Origin: Bacteroidota bacterium
GTDB lineage: Bacteria; Bacteroidota; Bacteroidia; Cytophagales; Cyclobacteriaceae
Assembly: GCA_022571715.1 (NCBI GenBank)
Contig: JACZXH010000015.1
Location: 1 to 54,174 of the forward strand
Direction of reading: 5' to 3'
DNA length: 54,174 nucleotides
Shown here: piece after piece, positions 4,991 to 49,402 of the stretch
Layout of the letters: each line of letters begins with the position of its first letter
Numbering within the stretch: the stretch's first letter is position 1
Made by a program: the position numbers and the translations under genes
Notes under the pieces: generated by a model
What the model was told of the DNA's origin: nothing
What the model saw: the letters and a program-made list of their open reading frames with translations, nothing else
The model's database searches: none

Positions 4991-6265
4991 ATGGGTTATA
5001 TAGAACCGGCCCCAATCGTGGACCATGAAAATCCGTTCGAGTCCATGATGTCCAGGTTTAAAATTGCCTCCGAAATTCTAGGTCTGGACGAAGAAATTTA
5101 TAACGTATTAAAGTCCCCGGCAAAACAAGTAGCTGTTTCCCTGCCCATTACAATGGACGACGAATCCATACGGGTCTTCGAAGGTTTCCGCGTAATACAT
5201 TCAAATATACTTGGACCTTCAAAAGGCGGAATAAGGTACGACCCCGCAGTGAATATTGATGAAATGAAGGCGCTTGCTGCATGGATGACCTGGAAATGTG
5301 CCGTTGTGGATATCCCTTATGGGGGCGCCAAAGGAGGGATTATCTGCAATCCCAGGGAAATGTCAAGTGGGGAAATTGAGCGTTTAACGAGAGCCTATAC
5401 CATGTCAATGTTTGAAATATTCGGTCCTGACAAGGATATTCCAGCACCAGACATGGGTACTGGACCACGGGAAATGGCATGGCTGATGGACCAGTACTCC
5501 AGGGCAGTTGGCCATACCACCATTTCCGTGGTTACTGGAAAACCACTGGTGTTGGGTGGTTCTCTTGGAAGAACAGAAGCCACGGGCCGGGGCGTAATGG
5601 TAACTACCCTGGCGGCAATGGAAAAACTACGGATAAATCCGTATGGGGCTACGTGTGCTGTTCAGGGATTTGGAAATGTAGGTTCTTTTGCAGCTTTGCT
5701 GCTGGAAGAGAGAGGTGTGAAAATAATTGCCATAAGTGACCTGTCAGGAGCCTATTACAATAAAGACGGCCTGGATATTGAAAAAGTCATCGCGTACAGG
5801 GATGCCAACAAAGGAACCCTCGAAGGGTTAGCAGATGCAGAGAAAATTGCCAGAAACGAGTTACTCACACTCGAAGCAGATGTATTGATTCCTGCAGCCA
5901 CTGAAGACGTGATTACCGTTAAAAACGCAGATAAAATAAAAGCAAAGTTGATTGTTGAAGGTGCCAACGGACCTACTTCATATAAAGCCGATTCCATTAT
6001 CCATGATAAGGGTATAGTAGTCATTCCTGATATCCTTGCAAATGCAGGTGGTGTTACGGTTTCCTATTTTGAGTGGGTACAAAACAGACAGGGATATAAA
6101 TGGACACGCGAACGGGTGAACAGACGCTCTGACAGAATCATGAAAGACGCTTTCGAAAAAGTATATGAAACGGCGGTGAAATATAAAGTTTCCTTCAGGA
6201 TTGCCGCTTACATCGTAGCTATTGACAAAGTTGCAAAAACATACAAGTACCGGGGCGGGTATTAA
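4991..6265 (+). CDS. Glutamate dehydrogenase (Glu/Leu/Phe/Val dehydrogenase family)
   Basis: This 424-residue enzyme interconverts glutamate and 2-oxoglutarate plus ammonia. The N-terminal substrate domain holds GPSKGGIRYDP (about 75-85), the catalytic lysine in YGGAKGG (K114) and PAPDMGTG with the catalytic Asp at 154. The Rossmann domain has AVQGFGNVG at about 223-231. The length is that of hexameric catabolic-type GDHs (GudB/RocG-like) rather than the ~450-residue NADP type, so NAD use is likely but not proven. The gap after cdsA is 67 bases, with a TATCTTTA box near 4954 that could be a promoter. The gap to psd is only 17 bases, so the two may be cotranscribed. Confidence 0.93.
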   Translation: MGYIEPAPIVDHENPFESMMSRFKIASEILGLDEEIYNVLKSPAKQVAVSLPITMDDESIRVFEGFRVIHSNILGPSKGGIRYDPAVNIDEMKALAAWMTWKCAVVDIPYGGAKGGIICNPREMSSGEIERLTRAYTMSMFEIFGPDKDIPAPDMGTGPREMAWLMDQYSRAVGHTTISVVTGKPLVLGGSLGRTEATGRGVMVTTLAAMEKLRINPYGATCAVQGFGNVGSFAALLLEERGVKIIAISDLSGAYYNKDGLDIEKVIAYRDANKGTLEGLADAEKIARNELLTLEADVLIPAATEDVITVKNADKIKAKLIVEGANGPTSYKADSIIHDKGIVVIPDILANAGGVTVSYFEWVQNRQGYKWTRERVNRRSDRIMKDAFEKVYETAVKYKVSFRIAAYIVAIDKVAKTYKYRGGY

Positions 6266-6282
6266 ATCATCAGCGAAGTCAT

Positions 6283-6945
6283 ATGACCATACACAAAGAG
6301 GGTAAAAAACCGCTTTTTTATTTACTCATTACGCTATTTCTGATAAATGTAGCTATAAGTTATTTAGTATCTCAGGAAGATATTCTGAATGTGGTTATTG
6401 CCGTAAGCGTTATATTTTATGTACTCGTATTGCAGTTTTTCAGAAGTCCAGATATTGTTACGAAAGAAGATTCAAATCTTGTATATGCCCCTGCAGACGG
6501 AAAAGTGGTTGTGGTTGAAAAAACCCTGGAAAATGAGTATTTTGAAGATGAACGTATACAGGTTTCAATATTTATGTCTCCACTGAATGCGCATGTAAAC
6601 CGTACCCCGGCAGGCGGCATCATTTCGTATTTCAAATATCATCCCGGAAAATACCTGGTTGCCTGGCACCCGAAATCGAGTACCGAAAACGAACGTACCA
6701 CGATGGTGATAAGATTGAAAAATAATGTTGAAATCCTGGTCAGACAGGTAGCAGGGGCTGTTGCACGAAGAATCAAATGGTACGTTCACGAAGGAAATTA
6801 CGTCAGACAAGGGCAGGAATTTGGTTTTATCAAGTTTGGATCAAGGTTAGATGTATATCTGCCCACAGATGCAGAACTGAAGGTGAAGCCTGGTGACAAA
6901 ACAACCGGAGGCAAAACAGTGATTGCAGAACTTAATTCCATATAA
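6283..6945 (+). CDS. psd: Phosphatidylserine decarboxylase, short (PSD-A) type
   Basis: This enzyme makes phosphatidylethanolamine by decarboxylating phosphatidylserine. It is a self-cleaving pyruvoyl enzyme. The 220-residue proprotein has two N-terminal membrane segments (FYLLITLFLINVAISYLV and VVIAVSVIFYVLVLQFF), then YAPADGKVVVVE, SIFMSPLNAHVNRTPAGG and HPKSSTENERTTMVI. The FGSRLDVYLP processing site lies at residues 185-194. Cleavage between G186 and S187 would create the pyruvoyl alpha chain. The short length and absence of the long N-terminal extension mark the archaeal/Bacteroidota PSD-A subtype. It works downstream of cdsA in the same gene neighbourhood. It converges with the methionine sulfoxide reductase gene, with 26 bases between them. 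Confidence 0.94.
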   Translation: MTIHKEGKKPLFYLLITLFLINVAISYLVSQEDILNVVIAVSVIFYVLVLQFFRSPDIVTKEDSNLVYAPADGKVVVVEKTLENEYFEDERIQVSIFMSPLNAHVNRTPAGGIISYFKYHPGKYLVAWHPKSSTENERTTMVIRLKNNVEILVRQVAGAVARRIKWYVHEGNYVRQGQEFGFIKFGSRLDVYLPTDAELKVKPGDKTTGGKTVIAELNSI

Positions 6946-6971
6946 AAGTAAAACAAGTCAGAGCTTTCACA

Positions 6972-7454
6972 TTACAGATATCCCTCTGCTGTTTTTAATA
7001 ATTTCTCAAGCCAGATTTTATCTGTCTGGTCAAAATCATTCAGCATCGTACTGTCAACATCAAGAACATATAAAACCTCTTTACTCCGTATTACCGGTAC
7101 AACAATTTCTGATCTCGACGACGGACTACATGCAATGTGCCCCGGAAATTTATCAACATCAGGCACGATGATCGTTTCTTTCGTTTCCCACACTGTGCCG
7201 CATACGCCACGTCCTCTGGCTATTCTTGTGCAGGCAACAGGTCCCTGAAAAGGCCCTAACACCAACTCATCGCCTGCCACTTTATAAAACCCGACCCAAA
7301 AAAAACCCATTCCGGTTTTAAGGGCTGCCACAAGGTTTGCCTGATTCGCAACAACATCTGGCTCATCACGTATCAGCGCAATGATCTGCGGTAACAGTGA
7401 TTCGTATTTCGACGCCTTGTCTTCAGATTCAGAAACGATTATTTCCTCTTCCAT
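6972..7454 (-). CDS. msrC: Free methionine-(R)-sulfoxide reductase (GAF-domain fRMsr)
   Basis: This 160-residue single-GAF protein reduces free methionine-R-sulfoxide, a repair step after oxidative damage, and is recycled by thioredoxin. The three family cysteines are present: C75 in GPVACTRI, C85 in GRGVCGTVW and C109 in GHIACSPSSRSEIVVP. The WVGFYK core and the DVDS ending of the GAF fold are also clear. Other GAF proteins bind cyclic nucleotides or sense light, but the Cys pattern points to fRMsr. It lies alone on the minus strand, downstream of ribD with an 87-base gap. ATG 7452-7454 is the only sensible start. Confidence 0.9.
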   Translation of the reverse strand: MEEEIIVSESEDKASKYESLLPQIIALIRDEPDVVANQANLVAALKTGMGFFWVGFYKVAGDELVLGPFQGPVACTRIARGRGVCGTVWETKETIIVPDVDKFPGHIACSPSSRSEIVVPVIRSKEVLYVLDVDSTMLNDFDQTDKIWLEKLLKTAEGYL

Positions 7455-7541
7455 TATTCATAAATTAACATATAATAAAGGCTACTTTCATGATACATGC
7501 GCCGCTTGTCCCATAGCTCACCTGCCCGCAAACATAATTAT

Positions 7542-8594
7542 TTATTCACCGGTATTACCGTTTTCTGTAGCATTGAATCTGTAAATGTATAGTTTGTCTT
7601 CTGCAATCATTTCTTGTGATTCCGGATCTTTTATAATTTTCGGCGCTTCAATGCCCTTTTTAAATTTATCAGGCGATACAAAGACCCTTGCTTCATCCCA
7701 TAGGCCTGCTTTAATAAAATTATTCAGGGTTGCCGCGCCTCCCTCCACAATGATACTTCCCAGCCCTTTTTCATTAAGATCATTTAACATCCCCTCCAGA
7801 AAATTGTCTTTATTGATTCTTCTGAAAATCAGATTTCCCTGAATTTGATCTTTAACGTAATTATAAACAATGGTTTCAATCCGTTGGTCAAATATTAGAT
7901 AGCTATTATCGAGTTTCAATCCGGTATCAATCACTATTCGTACCGGATTATTCCCCTCCCAATCCCTGACATTCAGTGTGGGGTTATCGAACTGAACCGT
8001 GCCCCTTCCTACTAATATGGCATCTTCTTCCGCGCGCCATTTATGTACGATTTTGCGCGAAGCGTCCGAACTGATCCATTTCGAATCACGATTTTCCTTC
8101 GCAATAAAACCGTCAGCGGTCTGCGCCCATTTCAGAATGACATACGGCCGCTCTTTTTCCTGATTTGTAAAAAACCGTCGGTTCAGTTCTCGCCCTTCCG
8201 CCCAAAGTATTCCTTCTTTTATCTTAATTTTATGTTTCAGAAGCTGTTGGATTCCACCCCCTGATACACGAGGATTTGGATCCCGGTTACTGATTACAAC
8301 CCGTTTCACTTTATGCTTGGTCAGCATATCTGTACAGGCAGGCGTTTTCCCATGATACGAACATGGCTCAAGGTTGATATATATTGTGCTTCCGTGTAGT
8401 AATGACTTATCTTCAACATTGTTAACAGCATATACTTCTGCATGTGGCCCGCCAAATTTTTTATGCCACCCTTCACCGATAATATTATCCTCATATACAA
8501 TCACACACCCCACCATCGGATTAGGGCTTACATTTCCAAGTCCAAACCTGGCGATGTCAAGCGCACGTTTCATATATTGTTCATCCTTTGACAA
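7542..8594 (-). CDS. ribD: Riboflavin biosynthesis deaminase/reductase RibD
   Basis: This bifunctional enzyme carries out the second and third steps of riboflavin synthesis: deamination of the pyrimidine intermediate, then NADPH reduction of the ribose side chain. The N-terminal zinc deaminase has HAE at 51-53 and PCSYHGKTPAC with the zinc cysteines C78 and C87. The C-terminal reductase (from about residue 150) shows PYVILKWAQTADGFIA, WISSDASRKIVHKWRA, AILVGRGTV and IIVEGGAATLNNFI. The total is 350 residues. The first codon is TTG at 8594. I prefer it over the ATG seven codons later because residues DEQYMKRAL fit the usual deaminase start. It is divergent from prmC across 56 bases. Confidence 0.94.
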   Translation of the reverse strand: MSKDEQYMKRALDIARFGLGNVSPNPMVGCVIVYEDNIIGEGWHKKFGGPHAEVYAVNNVEDKSLLHGSTIYINLEPCSYHGKTPACTDMLTKHKVKRVVISNRDPNPRVSGGGIQQLLKHKIKIKEGILWAEGRELNRRFFTNQEKERPYVILKWAQTADGFIAKENRDSKWISSDASRKIVHKWRAEEDAILVGRGTVQFDNPTLNVRDWEGNNPVRIVIDTGLKLDNSYLIFDQRIETIVYNYVKDQIQGNLIFRRINKDNFLEGMLNDLNEKGLGSIIVEGGAATLNNFIKAGLWDEARVFVSPDKFKKGIEAPKIIKDPESQEMIAEDKLYIYRFNATENGNTGE

Positions 8595-41177: not shown

Positions 41178-41437
41178 AAATACACCGCATGAATTTTCGT
41201 CATCAGACATTTAATATATTAATGATTATGGTGATCTGGGTTATCACCATGATATTACTGTTTTTTAACGGGAATTATGACGTAGATTATGTGATTACAG
41301 GCGTATCTCAAATCAATTATTTTGAAGACTCCCCCGATGTGTTGCTTTTATATATATTTGGTGGTGTAATTTTTGGCATTTCCAACGGTTTAAGTTCCAG
41401 TTTGCCTGACCTTAACATCAGCCCGAAACATGGATAA
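41174..41437 (+). CDS. Small two-helix membrane protein of unknown family
   Basis: The 87-residue protein has two hydrophobic helices (TFNILMIMVIWVITMILLFF, then LLLYIFGGVIFGISNGL) with a short outer loop rich in Asp between them (NGNYDVDYVITG). I do not recognise a family. It overlaps the sigma gene as ATGA and overlaps ppk1 by 8 bases, so it is made with both. It could be a membrane partner for Ppk1, a modulator of the sigma, or an envelope protein of the regulon. Confidence 0.7.
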   Translation: MKIHRMNFRHQTFNILMIMVIWVITMILLFFNGNYDVDYVITGVSQINYFEDSPDVLLLYIFGGVIFGISNGLSSSLPDLNISPKHG

Positions 41438-43502
41438 ATATTCTTCATATAATAATCGTGATCTCAGTTGGTTGTCGTTCAATGGGAGAGTCCTTGAAGA
41501 GGCAGCCGATAGATCACTCCCGCTTTATGAGCAAATAAAATTTCTGGCCATTTACTCCTCGAATCTTGATGAGTTTTACCGTGTAAGGGTTGCCAGATTG
41601 AAAAGTTTCAAAGCGCTAAACAAGAAAAAAATCAACAAAGAACTAAATATAGACCCTGACAATAATCTTGAAGAAATAAAAGTGCGTGTTCACCGGCAGC
41701 TTGAATTTTTTGGCACTATCTTGACAGAAAATATCCTTCCCGGACTTCGGGAACATAATATCGTGCTGGCGTACCATAAAGATGAAATCCCTGAAGAAGC
41801 CGGCCAGTTAATATCTTCTTATTTCAAGAGCAGAGTACTTTCTTATTTGCAACCTGTGATTCTGCAGCCAGGTGAAAAGGCGTTTCTGGCCAACCGGGCT
41901 CTTTATCTTATGCTTAAACTTACTTCGGTCGAATCGGGAGATTTTTATTACGCATACGTAAATATTCCCGTTCCTCCACTCAACCGTTTTTTTTACTACC
42001 AACAGCGTGAAACCTCGTACTTTATTTTTCTCGATGACATCATCCGGCTAAATCTTTCTTTCATCTTTCCAGGGTATAATATTTCGGATGGATTCTGTGT
42101 GAAACTGAACCGCGACGCTGATCTTCAGATCGATGATGAATTTTCCGGTGACCTTGTTGAAAAAATTAAAATGCGGTTAAAGAAAAGAAATGTGGGTGCT
42201 CCTTCCAGGTTGCTGTATGACAGCAACCTGCCTTTTGACATGCTGAATGTGATGATGGAAGCCACCGAAACCGAGGATGAAGACCTTGTACCCGGAGGCA
42301 GGTACCATAATCTGCATGATTTGTTTACACTGCCTAATCCGAAAGATCCTGAATTTGCCATACAGCCCTGGGCGGCAATAAGAAAACCTTTATTAGACAA
42401 AAGTATGTCCATTTTCAATGAAATTGACAAGCAGGATATTCTTTTTCACTTTCCATATCACTCCTACGATTATGTACTAAGGTTTTTTAATGAAGCAGCT
42501 GTTAATCCGAACGTACAGGAGATCAAAGTCACCTTTTACAGAGTAGCCTCTGATTCATTTATTGTGAATGCCCTGATAAGCGCAGCGCGTAATGGCAAAA
42601 AAGTAAAAGCATTTATTGAAGTTAAAGCCCGGTTTGATGAAGAAAATAATTTACGCTGGGCCAATAAAATGAAAGAAGCCGGCGTGAAGATCACCTACAG
42701 CATACCCGGACTGAAAGTGCATGCCAAAGTGGCTCTGGTACATAAAACGGATGAAAACGGCAATTTAAAATCGTATGCCTATCTCGGAACTGGAAATTTT
42801 AATGAGAAAACAGCAGGTATTTATGCCGATCACGGCCTTCTTACAACTCACGAAGAACTAACCAAAGAAATTGATACCGTATTCAAATACCTGTACAGGC
42901 GAAAACCCATTGAAAATTTAAACCTGTTGCTGGTTAGTCAGTTTAATATGACGGACAGGTTTAACGCCCTGATTGACCGGGAAATCGGAAATGCAAAAAA
43001 GGGTAAAAAGGCAGATATCCTCATCAAATTAAACAATATAGAAGACAAAAAGATGATTGACAGGCTTTATGAAGCAGCACTGTCAGGAGTTAACATCAGG
43101 CTGATCATCAGGGGAATATGCTGTTTGAAACCGGGTATAAAACCACTTGGGAGCAAAATTAAGGCGATCAGGCTAGTTGATAGATACCTGGAACACTCCC
43201 GAATCTTTATTTTTCACAATGGAGGTAACCCTGAAGTTTATATGGGCTCAGCCGACTGGATGCAACGCAATCTTTATCACCGAATAGAAGTGATCTTTCC
43301 GATACTTGACAAGAACCTGAAAAAGGAATTAATCATCTATATCGCTTTCCAATTGCATGACAATACTAAAGCGAGAATCCTGGATGAAGATCTGAACAAC
43401 ATTGTGATCCTGAACAAAAACGGCACCCGTGAAATCCGTGCGCAACGGCACTTTTACTTATGGTTGAAAAAGAAGGAGGAAACTGATAAGATAGTTACGT
43501 AA
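41430..43502 (+). CDS. ppk1: Polyphosphate kinase 1
   Basis: Ppk1 makes polyphosphate from ATP and can reverse the reaction. The 690-residue protein has the N-terminal opening NRDLSWLSFNGRVLEEAADR, then SSNLDEFYRVRVARLKSF. The phosphorylated His lies at H431 in GLKVHAKVALV, followed by YLGTGNFNEKTAGIYADHGL, and the second catalytic His at H589 in LEHSRIFIF, followed by MGSADWMQRNLYHRIEV. Both match the E. coli active-site pair (H435/H592) in position. It overlaps the upstream membrane protein gene by 8 bases and the convergent HD-PycTM gene by 8 at the 3' end. No exopolyphosphatase gene is in the window. Confidence 0.96.
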   Translation: MDKYSSYNNRDLSWLSFNGRVLEEAADRSLPLYEQIKFLAIYSSNLDEFYRVRVARLKSFKALNKKKINKELNIDPDNNLEEIKVRVHRQLEFFGTILTENILPGLREHNIVLAYHKDEIPEEAGQLISSYFKSRVLSYLQPVILQPGEKAFLANRALYLMLKLTSVESGDFYYAYVNIPVPPLNRFFYYQQRETSYFIFLDDIIRLNLSFIFPGYNISDGFCVKLNRDADLQIDDEFSGDLVEKIKMRLKKRNVGAPSRLLYDSNLPFDMLNVMMEATETEDEDLVPGGRYHNLHDLFTLPNPKDPEFAIQPWAAIRKPLLDKSMSIFNEIDKQDILFHFPYHSYDYVLRFFNEAAVNPNVQEIKVTFYRVASDSFIVNALISAARNGKKVKAFIEVKARFDEENNLRWANKMKEAGVKITYSIPGLKVHAKVALVHKTDENGNLKSYAYLGTGNFNEKTAGIYADHGLLTTHEELTKEIDTVFKYLYRRKPIENLNLLLVSQFNMTDRFNALIDREIGNAKKGKKADILIKLNNIEDKKMIDRLYEAALSGVNIRLIIRGICCLKPGIKPLGSKIKAIRLVDRYLEHSRIFIFHNGGNPEVYMGSADWMQRNLYHRIEVIFPILDKNLKKELIIYIAFQLHDNTKARILDEDLNNIVILNKNGTREIRAQRHFYLWLKKKEETDKIVT

Positions 43503-44718
43503 CAGTAAACAACAATGGGTACATCTCCGCCAGTATAAACAAAATGATAGAAATGGTCAATCCAAACATAAAAACAGTATAGGATGAGCGTAGCAGCTTA
43601 TACTTACGACCCAGCACAACACCCAGATAATATATATCCTTTATGAGTGAGCTGTACAGGTAATCCCCATCATTCATCATTTCTTTCATTCCCCATAAGT
43701 AATTATCGATGCCCATTCCATGGAAATTGCCAAAAAATAACAGATTTGTTTTCCTGTTTTTAATATCCTCATCGGTAAATTTTCCTGAAGATACATTAGG
43801 CCTTGTGGCTAATATTGCAAATACGATTGTAATCAGACATGTTGCAGTTAGGGCAATGGCTGGAATAAGCAAAAACGGATCTTCATCTAATTTTCTGAAT
43901 AGTACGGTCAGTACAATGGATAGAATGATTGAATTAACTGATATCATTATATTGGCTTTATTGTCGGCCATACCGCTCAGGGTAAGGTGATTACGCGACG
44001 TGATCCTGAACATGGTTTCAACACCGCGGGTTGGCGGCTTGATCTCTTTTTCCTGATCCAGCTTGTTTTTTATCTTAACAAGTTCACTTTCCAGTTGGTC
44101 AACATACTTGTCAGAGTCCGATATCTTCTGTAATTTCTTAAGTTTCTTTATGTTTTTGCTCTTCTTTTTACTCAGTACGTATTTGCCATAATTAGTGAAA
44201 TAGCTATGTTGATTTGCAAATTTCAGTGTTTCACTTACCCATTTATCTTTATCGATGGTCTTGCCATGAACAGCTTCCATTTCTTTTTTAAGCAGCTGAG
44301 ACTTGTCCATAAACTGGTTTGTTGACAGGTGATACATATCGGCATCACACAACACTTCGCCAATAATGTCCTTCGGCCTTTGAGGCATTTTTGTAGCTTC
44401 AATGGTGTTTTCTATAATCTTAATTTTATCTTCAGGAAAGTTGTTGCTTTGAAGGAATTCTCTTGCAATCTGCCTGCTTTGCTTTTCATGGTCTGTACAT
44501 CCTTTGGAATAGCCGGTATCATGAAGCCAGGCAGCCAGAATTACCAGCTCAACCTGATCGTCAGTCAACTCCGAGCGTTCCCCTATTACAATGGCCGCTT
44601 CTACAACCTCTTTAGTGTGATCAATACTATGATAATAGAAATCATCCGAATAATGATTCCCAAGGATTTTTTCGACGTATTTTCCTGTTTCAATTATTAC
44701 ATTTGAATCGATACGCAT
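43495..44718 (-). CDS. HD-domain phosphohydrolase fused to a PycTM (DUF5706) membrane effector domain
   Basis: The 407-residue protein has an HD domain (about 1-170) with metal-binding H34 (YYHSIDHT), H66-D67 (AAWLHDTGYSKG) and D125/D127 (LCDADMYHL). A charged coiled coil follows (about 185-228). The rest is the PycTM domain: RGVETMFRITSRNHLTLSGM then ADNKANIMISVNSIILSIVL, and more helices (FLLIPAIALTATCLITIVFA, YTVFMFGLTISIILFILAEM). PycTM is the membrane-damaging effector of Pycsar phage defence, where a cyclase makes cCMP or cUMP; no cyclase is nearby. I chose ATG 44716-44718 over an upstream TTG. HD proteins often cut nucleotides or (p)ppGpp. Confidence 0.9.
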   Translation of the reverse strand: MRIDSNVIIETGKYVEKILGNHYSDDFYYHSIDHTKEVVEAAIVIGERSELTDDQVELVILAAWLHDTGYSKGCTDHEKQSRQIAREFLQSNNFPEDKIKIIENTIEATKMPQRPKDIIGEVLCDADMYHLSTNQFMDKSQLLKKEMEAVHGKTIDKDKWVSETLKFANQHSYFTNYGKYVLSKKKSKNIKKLKKLQKISDSDKYVDQLESELVKIKNKLDQEKEIKPPTRGVETMFRITSRNHLTLSGMADNKANIMISVNSIILSIVLTVLFRKLDEDPFLLIPAIALTATCLITIVFAILATRPNVSSGKFTDEDIKNRKTNLLFFGNFHGMGIDNYLWGMKEMMNDGDYLYSSLIKDIYYLGVVLGRKYKLLRSSYTVFMFGLTISIILFILAEMYPLLFTVT

Positions 44719-44786
44719 TAAATTGTCTTTTTTAATCCGCAAAATTAGGATATATATTAATACCTTGTGCAATTCAAAGTTAACCA

Positions 44787-45701
44787 ATGTTTCATAAAAT
44801 GCTTTTTTATGGCAAGATAATCGGTTTCAGCATTATTTTATTGCTTTATACGAGTTGTACTGATGCTGCAAAATCATACTATGAAAAAATGTATCCACCT
44901 GAAATGTACGTGCATTCCGGATATAAGCTGGATGCACCTGATCGTTCATTCAAGCTTCCTCACTTTTTGATTGAGATATCTGGATTAAGTTGTGTGAATG
45001 ATACCCACTTAGTTGCCGTACAGGATGAAAAGGGGATTCTCTATGTGATAAACATTGAAAACGGCAATATCGAACGAGAATTAAAATTTGGGAAAAAAGG
45101 TGATTATGAAGACGTGGAGTTTGTTGACGGGAAGATCTACATATTAAAAAGTGATGGAAGTGTATTCCATTTCAAATATCCTGAAGCGTTTGTTGAAGAA
45201 ATCAAGGTGGATAAAATAGAAACGCCCTTATTGAAGAAAAATGATGTCGAAGGACTGGGATATGATCCGATAAACCACACCCTCTTGTTTGCCTGCAAAG
45301 CCGACGGTTATCTGGGAGAAGATAAAAGAAAAGGAAGGTCGGTTTTTGCTTATGATCTGGAAGAAAAAAAATTTAATAAGAAACCTCTATATGTTATCAG
45401 TGTTAAAAAAATAAAGAAATTTGCATCGGAAAATAATATTGAACTTCCTAAGAAGGTGGAATTCAGGCCTTCTGCTATTGCCTTTCATCCATTAACCAAT
45501 CATATTTATCTGCTTGCACATATCGGCAAATCATTAATAGTTCTAAACCGCGAAGGTGATATTGTGGAGTACTACCGGTTAAATCCTTCAATATTCAGAC
45601 AACCTGAGGGAATTTGTTTTAGCTCCGACGGTACACTTTATATCTCAAATGAAGGACGAGGTAAACAGGCTAATATTTTAGTATTTTCTTACGCCAGATG
45701 A
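44787..45701 (+). CDS. YjiK/SdiA-regulated-type beta-propeller lipoprotein
   Basis: The 304-residue protein has a lipoprotein signal (GFSIILLLYTSC, C24) and a beta-propeller with the SdiA-regulated family signature. Visible parts are LIEISGLSCVNDTHLVAVQDEKG, GDYEDVEFVDGKIYILKSDG, KNDVEGLGYDPINHTLLFAC, PSAIAFHPLTNHIYLLAHIG and QPEGICFSSDGTLYISNEG. Acidic motifs (YEDVE, DVEGL, QPEGI) probably bind Ca. The function of YjiK is unknown; a phytase-like phosphate role has been suggested for related propellers. Its stop overlaps the next gene's start (ATGA), so it may work with the phosphatase-barrel protein. Confidence 0.85.
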   Translation: MFHKMLFYGKIIGFSIILLLYTSCTDAAKSYYEKMYPPEMYVHSGYKLDAPDRSFKLPHFLIEISGLSCVNDTHLVAVQDEKGILYVINIENGNIERELKFGKKGDYEDVEFVDGKIYILKSDGSVFHFKYPEAFVEEIKVDKIETPLLKKNDVEGLGYDPINHTLLFACKADGYLGEDKRKGRSVFAYDLEEKKFNKKPLYVISVKKIKKFASENNIELPKKVEFRPSAIAFHPLTNHIYLLAHIGKSLIVLNREGDIVEYYRLNPSIFRQPEGICFSSDGTLYISNEGRGKQANILVFSYAR

Positions 45702-48700
45702 TCTCCGTTTTTTTTAAAACCATTTTCCTTTTTCTTTGTTTTTCATTGGCTGTCGCTACCATTCTGGTGAGCCAGACATTACAACCCCGGTATTCGGTAT
45801 TTCTAATCGGTGACGCCGGCGAACCCTCGATTATAAACTCACCTCAGATAAATCTTCTTAAATCCCAACTGCTACAAGCGGCGGGGAACAGCGCCGTCAT
45901 ATTTCTGGGAGACAATATTTATCCGAAAGGAATGCCTTCTTACGACGATTCGGAAAGACAAAAAGCGGAAAAAATCATTGTAGGGCAACTCAGTATTACC
46001 AAAAATACTGCCGGAAGGGTTTTTGTAATACCAGGGAACCACGACTGGGATAAGGGAAAAAAGGACGGAGTATATAATAATTATTTCCAGGAGGAATTTG
46101 TAGAAATTTACATGGACAGTGTAAATATTTACCTTCCTGACAAAGGTTGCCCGGGCCCTGTAGAAGTACCACTTACTGAATATTTGGTGCTTATAATTAT
46201 TGATACTCAGTGGATTTTGCACCCCTGGGACAAACCACGGAAAGAACATGGATGCCAGGTACAAACGCCTTATGACGTGATAACCCTCACCGAGGATATT
46301 TTACGAAGAAATGAAGGTAAAAAGATAATTGTAGCATCGCATCATCCAATGTTCTCGTATGGCATTCACGGTGGTGTTACCACCCTGAAAAATCATCTTT
46401 TCCCTTTAACCGATATCAGCGACAATTTATACATACCTCTTCCGGTTGTCGGTTCCCTATATCCCTTTTACAGAAAATACGTTGGCAGTTTGCAAGATAT
46501 TGCCAACCCGTTGTACAAAACCTTTCGTGACCAGTTGGTCGAACTTTTTGAGCGGTACCCTGACCTTATACATGTGGCCGGGCATGAACACAGCCTACAG
46601 TACAGTTACAAAGACAGTATTCATTATATCGTAAGTGGTGCCGGTTCAAAACATACGCATGTAAAACTTAAAGGGTATTCACAGTTTGTTAAAGAAACTA
46701 TTGGGTTTGCCCGGCTCGACTATTACGATGACGGAAAAGTAGTGGTTTCTTACTGGGATGCAGATGGCAGCATGCTTTTTGAAAAGCTGTTGATGAAAAA
46801 AATATACAATCCACCTGTTTCGATTTCGGAATTTGTAAAAACCTCCCATTTTGAAGATAGTATGGTAAACACTGTAGCCAGTCGGCGATACATTGTGAAA
46901 CCGTCAAAATACTGGCTGAAAGGTGAAAATTACCGGGAAGTGTGGGCAGCGCCGGTAAATGTGCCTGTATTTGACATCGGTAAGGTTAAAGGCGGATTGA
47001 CTATATTGAAACGCGGTGGTGGCATGCAAACCAAATCACTCAGATTTGAAAATCCCGATGGCAAACAATACGTGATCAGATCGATCGAAAAATATGTTGA
47101 AAAAGCTATTCCTGAAATTTTCAGAGAGACCTTTGCAGCCGATCTTGTTCAAGATCAGATTTCTTCTTCCAATCCTTACGGTGCATTTGCCGTGCCCAAA
47201 TTGGCGGAAGCGGCCGGTATATATCACACAAATCCCCAAATGTATTTTATACCCGATGACCCCAGGTTTGGCCCCTACCGCTACGATTTTGCAAACACCC
47301 TGGTGCTTTTTGAAGAAAGACCAGCTGGAAACCGCAAAGATATTGACAGTTTTGGGAATTCTAAAAAAATATATAATACGGCTGACTTACTGGAACAATT
47401 GTACAAAGATAATGACAACAATGTTGACCAACATTGGGTTTTAAAGTCACGCCTTTTCGATCTCTATATTGGCGACTGGGACCGCCACGATGACCAGTGG
47501 AGATGGGCAAGTTTTAATAATAAAAAGGGAAAGGGCAAATTATTCAGGCCTATTCCACGCGATCGTGACAACGCTTTTTTTGTAAGCGAGGGCCTTTTGA
47601 TGAGCATAGTAAAGAGGAAATGGGCGATGCCGAAATTTCAGGGATTTGATTATGATCTGAAAAATCCTCCTGGATTTATGTTCAATGCCCGATATTTCGA
47701 TCGTGATTTTCTAAGTGAAATGGATGCGGAAGACTGGCGCACTGCCATACACGACCTGCAACAAAACATGACAGATGAGGTAATTGAAGATGCAATCAGT
47801 ACCTGGCAACAACCGGTATATATATTGGCAGGAGAGGAAGTAATATCCAAATTAAAGGTTAGAAGAGGCAAGCTTGAGGAATGGGCAATGGATTATTACA
47901 GCTTTCTTTCAGAAATTGTGAACGTACGGGGTTCTTTTAAGAAAGAATATTTTATAGTGGAACGGCTTGATGACCTTAAAACACGGGTGCGGGTTTTTAA
48001 AATGACTGATAAGAAAAAAAAGTCGAAGCTTATATATGACCGTACATTTATCCTTGGAGAAACAAAAGAAATAAGATTGTACGGGCTTAAGGGTAACGAC
48101 GAATTCAGTATAAGTGGTAACGTGCATAAAGGAATAAAAATAAGAGTGATCGGAGGTCCGGGAAAAGATATTATCATAGACAGTAGCAGGGTAAAAGGAT
48201 TATTAAAAAGAACAATTGTGTACGATACCCGTGAAGATACGGATCTGAGACTTGGTAAAGAAAGCAGAAACAAAACCTCAAATGATCCGTTAGTAAACCG
48301 CTATGCCCGCAATGATTTCAAGTACAATTTCACTGCGCCGCTGGTTTTGCTTAATTACAATGCGGATGATAAACTGTTTTTAGGTGGTGGTCTTGTTGCC
48401 ACAACTCATGGATTTCGCAAAACTCCCTTTAAATCCAAGCATTTTTTACTTGGAAGCATCGCACCAGCTACTTCTTCATTTTCCTTCACCTACCGCAGCA
48501 CGTATACCGATGTTATTAGAAACCTTGATCTGCAAATAAACCTGAGTGCGCTGTCGCCAAATTATACGTCAAACTTTTTCGGTCTTGGAAATAATTCTGT
48601 ATTTGACCAGAAAATTGCCGAAAATAAAAATATTCAAACTTCCATTAAATACTACCGGGTACGATTTCAATTATTTTCTACTGAATTACTACTGTCAAAA

Positions 48701-49402
48701 CAGCTTGGAACTAAAGCAAATATGCACTTCGGGGTGGACTGGCAAGCATTCAAAACTGTGGACGACTACGATGGCGAAGACCGTTTTATCCTGGATTATG
48801 CGGGATCCATTAACGATTTTTCCATTTTTAATTTGAAAACATATCAAGGTCTCGTATTTCAAATGGACATGGATACCCGCGACAATTCAATAATTCCGGA
48901 AAGAGGCATGGTTTGGAACCTGGATCTACGGGGTTATGTTGGCCTGAACAATGCTTCCAATGACTTCACACGTTTCCAGTCCGGGGCTTCTTTTTATTAC
49001 ACGTTCCGGCTTCCTTCCAAACTCACCCTGGCAGCTCATATTGAAGGAGGCCATAATTTTGGTACATACGAATACTATCAGGGTCAGATACTCAGTGGTC
49101 CGTTGCATCTAAGAGGATACTGGAAAACACGCTTTATAGGCGACAGCCGTGCATTCAGTAACCTGGAAGTCAGATACCATCTGGCGAGGATCAGAAGCAG
49201 GGTGGTACCAATGAAAGTGGGATTGACCGGATTTTATGATATTGGCCGTGTTTGGTTGGAAGGTGAGAATTCAACTACCTGGCACAGAGGTTATGGGGGA
49301 GGATTATGGTTAGCTCCTTTTTATACCACCGTTGTAGCCTTTGAATTAGCCGGATCAGTAGAGGGAACCCGTTTTTATATCAGGCTTGGTTTCCTGTTCT
49401 GA
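45698..49402 (+). CDS. Calcineurin-type phosphatase, kinase-like middle region and outer-membrane beta-barrel in one protein
   Basis: The 1234-residue protein has a signal peptide and a metallophosphoesterase domain (about 30-390): D39 (FLIGDAGE), GDNIYPKG at 71-78, GNHDWDKG from 113, ASHHPMFSYGIHG and VAGHEHSLQY. A middle region follows: KRGGGMQTKSLRF (438-450, glycine-rich), a QYVIRS strand, LVLFEERPAG (hinge-like), DWDRHDDQW at 593-601 and PIPRDRDNAFF with D622/D624. This resembles the P-loop, catalytic loop and metal motifs of CotH/FAM20/HipA-type atypical kinases. From about 870 to the end is a BamA/Omp85-like beta-barrel (SGPLHLRGYWKTRFIG, ending FYIRLGFLF). Phosphatase and barrel are firm; the kinase reading is inference. 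Confidence 0.85.
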   Translation: MISVFFKTIFLFLCFSLAVATILVSQTLQPRYSVFLIGDAGEPSIINSPQINLLKSQLLQAAGNSAVIFLGDNIYPKGMPSYDDSERQKAEKIIVGQLSITKNTAGRVFVIPGNHDWDKGKKDGVYNNYFQEEFVEIYMDSVNIYLPDKGCPGPVEVPLTEYLVLIIIDTQWILHPWDKPRKEHGCQVQTPYDVITLTEDILRRNEGKKIIVASHHPMFSYGIHGGVTTLKNHLFPLTDISDNLYIPLPVVGSLYPFYRKYVGSLQDIANPLYKTFRDQLVELFERYPDLIHVAGHEHSLQYSYKDSIHYIVSGAGSKHTHVKLKGYSQFVKETIGFARLDYYDDGKVVVSYWDADGSMLFEKLLMKKIYNPPVSISEFVKTSHFEDSMVNTVASRRYIVKPSKYWLKGENYREVWAAPVNVPVFDIGKVKGGLTILKRGGGMQTKSLRFENPDGKQYVIRSIEKYVEKAIPEIFRETFAADLVQDQISSSNPYGAFAVPKLAEAAGIYHTNPQMYFIPDDPRFGPYRYDFANTLVLFEERPAGNRKDIDSFGNSKKIYNTADLLEQLYKDNDNNVDQHWVLKSRLFDLYIGDWDRHDDQWRWASFNNKKGKGKLFRPIPRDRDNAFFVSEGLLMSIVKRKWAMPKFQGFDYDLKNPPGFMFNARYFDRDFLSEMDAEDWRTAIHDLQQNMTDEVIEDAISTWQQPVYILAGEEVISKLKVRRGKLEEWAMDYYSFLSEIVNVRGSFKKEYFIVERLDDLKTRVRVFKMTDKKKKSKLIYDRTFILGETKEIRLYGLKGNDEFSISGNVHKGIKIRVIGGPGKDIIIDSSRVKGLLKRTIVYDTREDTDLRLGKESRNKTSNDPLVNRYARNDFKYNFTAPLVLLNYNADDKLFLGGGLVATTHGFRKTPFKSKHFLLGSIAPATSSFSFTYRSTYTDVIRNLDLQINLSALSPNYTSNFFGLGNNSVFDQKIAENKNIQTSIKYYRVRFQLFSTELLLSKQLGTKANMHFGVDWQAFKTVDDYDGEDRFILDYAGSINDFSIFNLKTYQGLVFQMDMDTRDNSIIPERGMVWNLDLRGYVGLNNASNDFTRFQSGASFYYTFRLPSKLTLAAHIEGGHNFGTYEYYQGQILSGPLHLRGYWKTRFIGDSRAFSNLEVRYHLARIRSRVVPMKVGLTGFYDIGRVWLEGENSTTWHRGYGGGLWLAPFYTTVVAFELAGSVEGTRFYIRLGFLF

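Follow-up and report, generated by a model that had tools for sequence, protein, structure and literature searches.

A predicted kinase-like domain between a purple acid phosphatase-type domain and an Omp85-type barrel in a family of Bacteroidota proteins

The window analyzed here is a stretch of 54,174 nucleotides (positions 1 to 54,174 of contig JACZXH010000015.1, GenBank assembly GCA_022571715.1) from a Bacteroidota bacterium of the family Cyclobacteriaceae. On its forward strand, positions 45698-49402 form one open frame without a stop, coding for a protein of 1234 residues (hereafter the main protein). An approximate export signal recognized from the sequence (residues 1-25; 45698..45772) is followed by a metallophosphatase domain of the purple acid phosphatase (PAP) type (residues 27-370; 45776..46807), a kinase-like middle domain (MID; residues 385-745; 46850..47932), a mostly β linker (LNK; residues 746-877; 47933..48328), and an Omp85-type barrel of 16 strands that lacks POTRA domains (residues 878-1234; 48329..49399). 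Pfam searches with the main protein recovered Metallophos at residues 51-231 (E 1.5e-7) and Omp85 at residues 943-1199 (E 6.5e-11), with no Pfam match between the two. The single weak match of the main protein in PADLOC, to an endonuclease labeled 'Effector' (residues 81-124, E 0.0023), was taken for noise from the phosphatase part. We consider the fold and architecture of this protein to be very well supported.

The original prediction had placed a calcineurin-type phosphatase at the N-terminus, with D39 and the motifs GDN (71-73) and GNHD (113-116). This was borne out and could be refined. A phmmer search of the PDB with the main protein found mammalian tartrate-resistant (purple) acid phosphatases (TRAP) as the nearest solved sequences (best E 1.2e-4), and a Foldseek search with a model of residues 35-1234 (predicted local distance difference test score (pLDDT) 88.7, predicted TM-score (pTM) 0.85) ranked the human PAP 2bq8 first (E 2.3e-11). 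The main protein has D39, D72, Y75, N114, H115, H215, H296 and H298, which we take to be the metal ligands and catalytic histidine of PAPs. Judged by its residues, the domain is thus a phosphatase of the PAP/TRAP type with the full set of metal ligands, including the tyrosine ligand Y75; Cys151 and Cys186 could possibly form a disulfide. While the fold and the metal ligands, including the tyrosine, are common to the main protein and PAP/TRAP, the former differs in carrying a kinase fold and a barrel on the same chain. A further difference is that the ligands have been lost in 42 of the 144 classified genes that have a PAP domain beside MID.

The region between phosphatase and barrel had been suspected of being kinase-like, and its predicted structure points the same way. 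An AlphaFold2 model of residues 385-870, computed on an alignment of 84 members (A2), had a mean pLDDT of 93.3 and a pTM of 0.92. Searching the PDB with the MID model, Foldseek returned nine matches at E ≤ 0.001, namely six CtkA chains, CotH, the type II phosphatidylinositol 4-kinase (PI4K-II) alpha and Rio2, with CtkA at the top (E 2e-5). Re-examination of Foldseek's own list with VIA-align, which is therefore not an independent search, gave CotH as the best match (Z 14.5, root-mean-square deviation (rmsd) 4.2, 254 aligned residues), followed by PI4K-II (Z 13.9 for the beta form and 13.6), CtkA (13.1) and HipA (11.1). All 50 best rows were kinases or kinase-fold proteins by title, among them HipA/MDT entries and LepB, which we take to be kinase-fold proteins. 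The Golgi casein kinase 4kqb, used for the comparison with FAM20C, had a Foldseek E of 2.7e-3 and lay outside these 50 rows. In the MID model, G440-G442 lie between strands 435-440 and 447-451, R461 is inside strand 457-462, the hinge-like segment 534-540 is a strand, helix 578-591 is followed by the loop D593-Q600, and D622 comes after strand 614-620. This succession of elements is that of kinases, with residue equivalences drawn from motif alignment and secondary structure and not from superposed coordinates. Because the structural matches are kinases and the motifs sit on the right elements, we read MID as a kinase fold; the model supports a two-lobed arrangement, nearest to CotH, PI4K-II, CtkA and HipA.

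The motifs themselves, all of which had been pointed out from the letters alone, are found where they were expected: the glycine-rich loop G440-G442 (47015..47023), the ATP-lysine position R461 (47078..47080), the hinge-like LVLFEERPAG (534-543), the catalytic loop DWDRHDDQW (593-601; 47474..47500), in which Q600 occupies a metal-ligand position, and PIPRDRDNAFF (618-628), whose portion P618-D624 (47549..47569) forms a metal-Asp motif with D622 as the DFG-like residue. Their conservation was assessed over two samples of 122 and 62, altogether 184 middle domains, including that of the window and with no exact duplicate between samples. Of the 135 non-redundant genes of the first sample in which the domain was matched at all, 122 had a near-complete MID, and partial ones were dropped. 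G441, R461, D588, D593, D622 and D624 are present in 184/184, K465 and E539 in 183, and H597 and R623 in 182. Q600 is found in 174/184, with N in the other 10, and D595 in 173/184, with G in 8 and S in 3. Neither outcome that would have spoken against the original prediction, a middle region with another fold or Asp/His motifs that vary among homologues, was observed. In the weak profile match to CtkA (E 0.22), D595 falls on the catalytic loop of that kinase. Furthermore, a consensus derived from 26 CotH sequences in the phylum has G-x-W-D and P-x-D-x-D in the same order as MID, and with the same spacing within P-x-D-x-D. Given the CtkA loop alignment and the CotH motif match, the catalytic aspartate of MID is likely to be D595 and not D593. 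For CotH, a passage in PMC7821199 gives D228Q as the inactive variant.

At the level of sequence profiles, MID could be assigned to no named kinase family. Searches with MID of the main protein retrieved nothing from Pfam at E 10, and from NCBIfam a single hypothetical family at E 0.12. Six barrel-less relatives likewise matched no kinase-fold family in Pfam or NCBIfam; one of them had a chance-level match (E 0.028) to dephospho-CoA kinase, which we take to be a P-loop family of different fold. Across the 84 members of A2, 18 Pfam families at E 0.1 and 7 NCBIfam families at E 0.05 were matched, none with a kinase fold, and each family fitted at most two members (at most three at E 1, among the best 25 of 42 families). 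The CotH family (PF08757) found no match in these seven proteins at E 10, nor in the A2 members at E 0.1, and HipA_C (PF07804) had no Pfam match in MID or the A2 members. Comparisons by hhalign with CotH and HipA alignments built in this analysis were non-significant as well (values below). Since neither family models nor hhalign gave a match, we rejected membership of MID in the CotH or HipA family despite the common fold; by profile, it forms a separate family. Thus, CotH is the best VIA-align match and shares the order of motifs, yet MID has no PF08757 match and is fused to PAP and Omp85. CtkA, a relative of HipA (PF07804 and relatives), is the top Foldseek match and the top, weak, PDB profile match, but the MID protein is exported, membrane-anchored and has Arg at the ATP-lysine site. 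The type II phosphatidylinositol 4-kinases, which are eukaryotic lipid kinases, resemble MID in structure, yet share 9-13 % identity with it. The genome of the window also has a separate CotH-family protein above the Pfam cut-off (G000:C135:28674-29780). Partial, divergent MID matches in frames of about 600-740 residues were noted in genomes G071, G092, G263 and G295, and could bridge to other kinase families.

The C-terminal barrel conforms to the Omp85-like barrel that had been proposed: PF01103 scores above its cut-off, BamA and TamA are among the structural matches, and 16 strands were counted in the model. A match to NF047779 was below the cut-off of that family. LNK also occurs in barrel-less relatives consisting of MID and LNK, and is mostly β in both models; weak RTX-like matches at E 1 (PF00353, best E 0.023) were seen in LNK of two of the 84 relatives. 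We also rejected identity with BamM, a BAM subunit of F. johnsoniae, which a passage in PMC12611786 describes as a lipoprotein with a prolyl-isomerase fold.

To compare the fates of the two putative enzymatic halves, we classified 180 of the 184 genes, leaving out four that were split, cut or doubtful (L084_5407, L119_2, L050 and L095). There were 102 with an intact PAP domain, 42 with a broken one, 25 with a barrel and no PAP, and 11 with MID and neither PAP nor barrel. In the first sample, seven core PAP residues were kept in 60 of 98 usable genes fused in the order PAP-MID-LNK-barrel (a 99th fused row is a split gene), and the other 38 had lost one to seven of them. None of the 102 PAP-intact copies had lost D595. 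It is present in 34 of the 42 PAP-broken genes, all 42 of which have D622, and in 34 of the 36 PAP-absent genes, so that D595 is kept in 68/78 genes when the broken and absent classes are pooled. Seven of the eight PAP-broken genes without D595 come from one clade of the first sample and one from the second sample, outside the tree; in a quickly built tree of the first sample, the three PAP states required 13 changes and the loss of D595 two. Pairwise identity over 600 random pairs per class of the first sample was 44.7 % for MID and 26.8 % for PAP among PAP-broken genes, as against 46.8 % and 39.6 % among PAP-intact ones. Cys151 and Cys186 are each retained in 37 of 38 PAP-broken copies, and the PAP scaffold is thus still maintained. 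Because D595 and D622 persist where PAP is broken or absent, the conserved core of the family seems to be the kinase-like domain rather than the phosphatase.

The genome of the window encodes a second full-length copy (L049:6127-9765, G000:C44), in which the PAP ligands have been lost and D595 is replaced by Gly. This genome therefore combines one copy that looks intact at both sites with another broken at both, and such double loss was seen in eight classified genes. At locus L241, a lipoprotein-like MID-LNK gene (6051-7685) and a separate PAP gene lie 17 bp apart as an unfused pair, and this adjacency fits a joint function of both domains. In genomes G007 and G013, where the fused PAP is broken, a stand-alone PAP with intact ligands lies near a PycTM gene (see below), while no second PAP was found in G006 and G045 in the related-genome search. 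In the first sample, 11 of 26 PAP-broken loci (this 26 includes the split gene L084) have a histidine-phosphatase gene adjoining the main gene, and none of 43 PAP-intact or 11 PAP-less loci does. The 11 loci with this neighbor, among them the identical pair L096/L097, are L057, L062, L085, L086, L090, L093, L094, L096, L097, L104 and L114, and nine of the 11 histidine-phosphatase genes have a hydrophobic N-terminus as judged by eye. Over 67 tree rows the association has a Fisher p of 8e-6, though it corresponds to two changes on the tree, with which independent pairs cannot reach significance. In the second sample this neighbor was found at 0/60 loci, only four of its genes being broken. Given the two tree changes and its absence from the second sample, we treat a swap of phosphatases as only a lead.

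The family is widespread in Bacteroidota. Counting the genome of the window in each set, 38 of 59 related genomes match the main protein somewhere, 27 of them with a match spanning MID, and a profile of MID and linker is matched in 94 of the 247 phylum genomes, in four of them by weak partial matches. In a search for MID across bacterial and archaeal species, 586 of 595 stretches encode a relative among the matches listed, and the best 80 titles are of Bacteroidota type save one labeled Chlorobiota and one Rhodothermales. As judged from the sequences, the recurrence of the architecture of the main protein is more than chance. Three adjacent MID genes without barrel or PAP occur at L032:4129-9148, and copies split into two frames or interrupted by a stop at L006, L023, L030 and L084.

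Upstream of the main gene, with an overlap of 4 bases between its own stop codon and the start codon of the latter, lies a gene for a probable lipoprotein of the SdiA-regulated type (PF06977; 44787..45701, forward strand). It is preceded by a divergent gene (43495..44787, reverse strand) for a membrane protein with HD (PF01966) and PycTM (PF18967, E 4.2e-36) domains, which PADLOC too labels PycTM (Pycsar effector-type), and by a gene for polyphosphate kinase 1 (PPK1), recognized by its family model (41430..43502, forward strand). Neighbors within about 6 kb were counted at 80 named loci of the first sample and 60 of the second. An HD-PycTM-like gene lies near the MID gene at 50/80 and 39/60 loci (89/140), an SdiA-regulated gene at 30/80 (28 within 400 bp) and 18/60, a nucleotide cyclase gene at 22/80 and 1/60, and PPK1 at 12/80 and 9/60. 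By class, the PycTM-like gene accompanies 37/43 PAP-intact, 13/26 broken and 0/11 PAP-less loci in the first sample and 30/41, 2/4 and 7/15 in the second, so that loci with an intact PAP show the link most strongly. With thresholds picked after viewing the lists (a long form of at least 390 residues; E < 1e-25), the long PycTM form is present, among 39 related genomes, in precisely the 18 that have MID. Among the 247 phylum genomes, 76 have both, 14 MID only, 3 PycTM only and 154 neither, a comparison that ignores kinship; under a looser cut-off (any match, E 1e-3) the corresponding numbers are 79, 15, 15 and 138. From these counts we infer a functional link between the main protein and the PycTM/HD protein.

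Taken together, we slightly favor the view that the main protein is an outer-membrane-anchored, extracytoplasmic kinase-phosphatase. The Omp85-type barrel would anchor it in the outer membrane, the β linker would bear a kinase-like domain of the CotH/PI4K-II/HipA branch, and the N-terminal PAP-type domain would strip phosphate. MID would be a real phosphotransferase, with D595 catalytic, D622 and Q/N600 binding metal and R461 replacing the ATP lysine; on the predicted structure and its motifs, we lean toward its being an active kinase. PAP would oppose MID, or process its nucleotide or product, an activity that would have been lost in many lineages, and both substrate and donor would be found in the periplasm. 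Several observations weigh against this view. TM-scores of the nine best Foldseek kinases are moderate (0.27-0.51, rmsd 6.8-13.4); hhalign probabilities of MID are 5.6 % and 1.9 % with CotH and 1.7 % with HipA, so that neither family was detected by profile comparison; and CtkA, the top PDB profile match, is at noise level (E 0.21, the next and unrelated one having 0.43). In place of the ATP-binding Lys there is Arg, a peculiarity first noticed in the main protein that proved to hold for 184/184 sequences. None of the 11 PAP-less loci in the first sample shows the PycTM link, and the periplasm is not known to contain ATP. Finally, a paralogous clade that includes the second copy at L049 lacks D595, and therefore at least some members of the family are probably inactive or work otherwise.

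The invariant Arg, together with the clade that has Gly or Ser at D595 and the expectation that ATP is not available outside the cytoplasm, would also suit a pseudokinase scaffold, in which MID acts as a sensor or substrate holder to which a nucleotide, lipid or sugar phosphate binds, without phosphotransfer, and PAP, where intact, is the sole enzyme. We regard this as possible but rather unlikely, since D593, D622, D624 and R461 never vary, and D595 is retained in 173/184 sequences and in most genes whose PAP is broken or absent. An Arg is also not incompatible with a kinase: a passage on predicted Legionella kinases describes Arg in place of the lysine beside an otherwise conserved active site (PMC9758233). 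In particular, the suggestion of the original prediction that a dead kinase fold might serve the phosphatase is disfavored, given that the kinase motifs mostly outlast the phosphatase and that no PAP-intact copy has lost D595.

The position of the enzymes relative to the outer membrane bears on a further alternative. By a permissive heuristic, export signals, some of them lipoprotein-like, were recognized in 97/102 PAP-intact, 41/42 PAP-broken, 23/25 PAP-less and 9/11 barrel-less genes. The enzymes are N-terminal and the Omp85 barrel C-terminal, as would be expected if the barrel exported the PAP-kinase part onto the surface or into the medium, where it would act on outside phosphate compounds in the manner of the type Vd autotransporter PlpD. 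Type Vd proteins such as PlpD carry POTRA, whereas no POTRA is seen in the model between passenger and barrel, where the linker is mostly β, and some MID-LNK relatives resemble barrel-less lipoproteins. Known Omp85 proteins have their N-terminal part on the periplasmic side. A passage in Heinz and Lithgow 2014 (PMC4104836) raises translocation by analogy with patatin-like Omp85 proteins and also backs a periplasmic role. By analogy, therefore, a periplasmic location of the PAP-kinase part seems likelier than one on the surface, a PlpD-like route to the latter being possible, and we judge the autotransporter reading unlikely.

Another reading takes into account that the kinase fold superfamily includes non-kinase activities such as AMPylation and glutamylation: MID might catalyze such a transfer, or use a donor other than ATP, such as polyphosphate or a secreted nucleotide. 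The extracytoplasmic setting, the Arg at the lysine site and the PPK1 genes in some neighborhoods are consistent with this; the PPK1 link concerns a minority of loci and may merely follow the linkage of other genes, and we hold this reading to be quite unlikely. That MID is not a kinase fold at all and resembles one by chance, as the want of profile-level similarity to any named kinase family might suggest, is very improbable in view of the nine best Foldseek matches and the 50 best VIA-align rows, all of them kinases or kinase-fold proteins, with Z up to 14.5, and the placement of the motifs on the correct structural elements.

The combination of PF00149 and an Omp85 barrel has been noted before. 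Heinz and Lithgow 2014 (PMC4104836) include a 'Metallo' subfamily of Omp85 proteins with PF00149 in front of the barrel, as in the main protein, for which the passage concerned discusses periplasmic or secreted roles. Very probably, these are the same proteins. Their description differs from the present one in that the PF00149 domain is termed a metalloprotease and no kinase is mentioned, the word 'kinase' having 0 occurrences in the text of that paper (PMC4104836). No paper was retrieved when the literature was searched for Omp85 proteins with a kinase-like part, the broader result lists having been covered in part; as far as these searches reach, there is no earlier description of a kinase-like domain placed between phosphatase and barrel. 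MID has no Pfam or NCBIfam model, and those libraries therefore see only the phosphatase and the barrel. Kinases of the CotH/PI4K-II/HipA branch are known, to our knowledge, from the cytosol, the Golgi and the spore coat, and not from within an outer-membrane barrel protein. It is conceivable, though doubtful, that these proteins represent the first phosphorylation system anchored in the outer membrane of Gram-negative bacteria, taking its phosphate not from cytosolic ATP but, for example, from polyphosphate or an exported nucleotide, with reversal by the fused phosphatase and a tie to the PycTM/HD protein.

The combination of these parts in one protein hints that Bacteroidota may both add and remove phosphate outside the cytoplasm, a setting in which a kinase of this sort would come as a surprise. 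When members with an intact phosphatase half are set against those in which it is broken, the comparison suggests that the kinase-like half is the conserved core. With this family, one can test whether Bacteroidota carry out enzymatic phosphorylation in the periplasm or at the cell surface, and which donor they would use.

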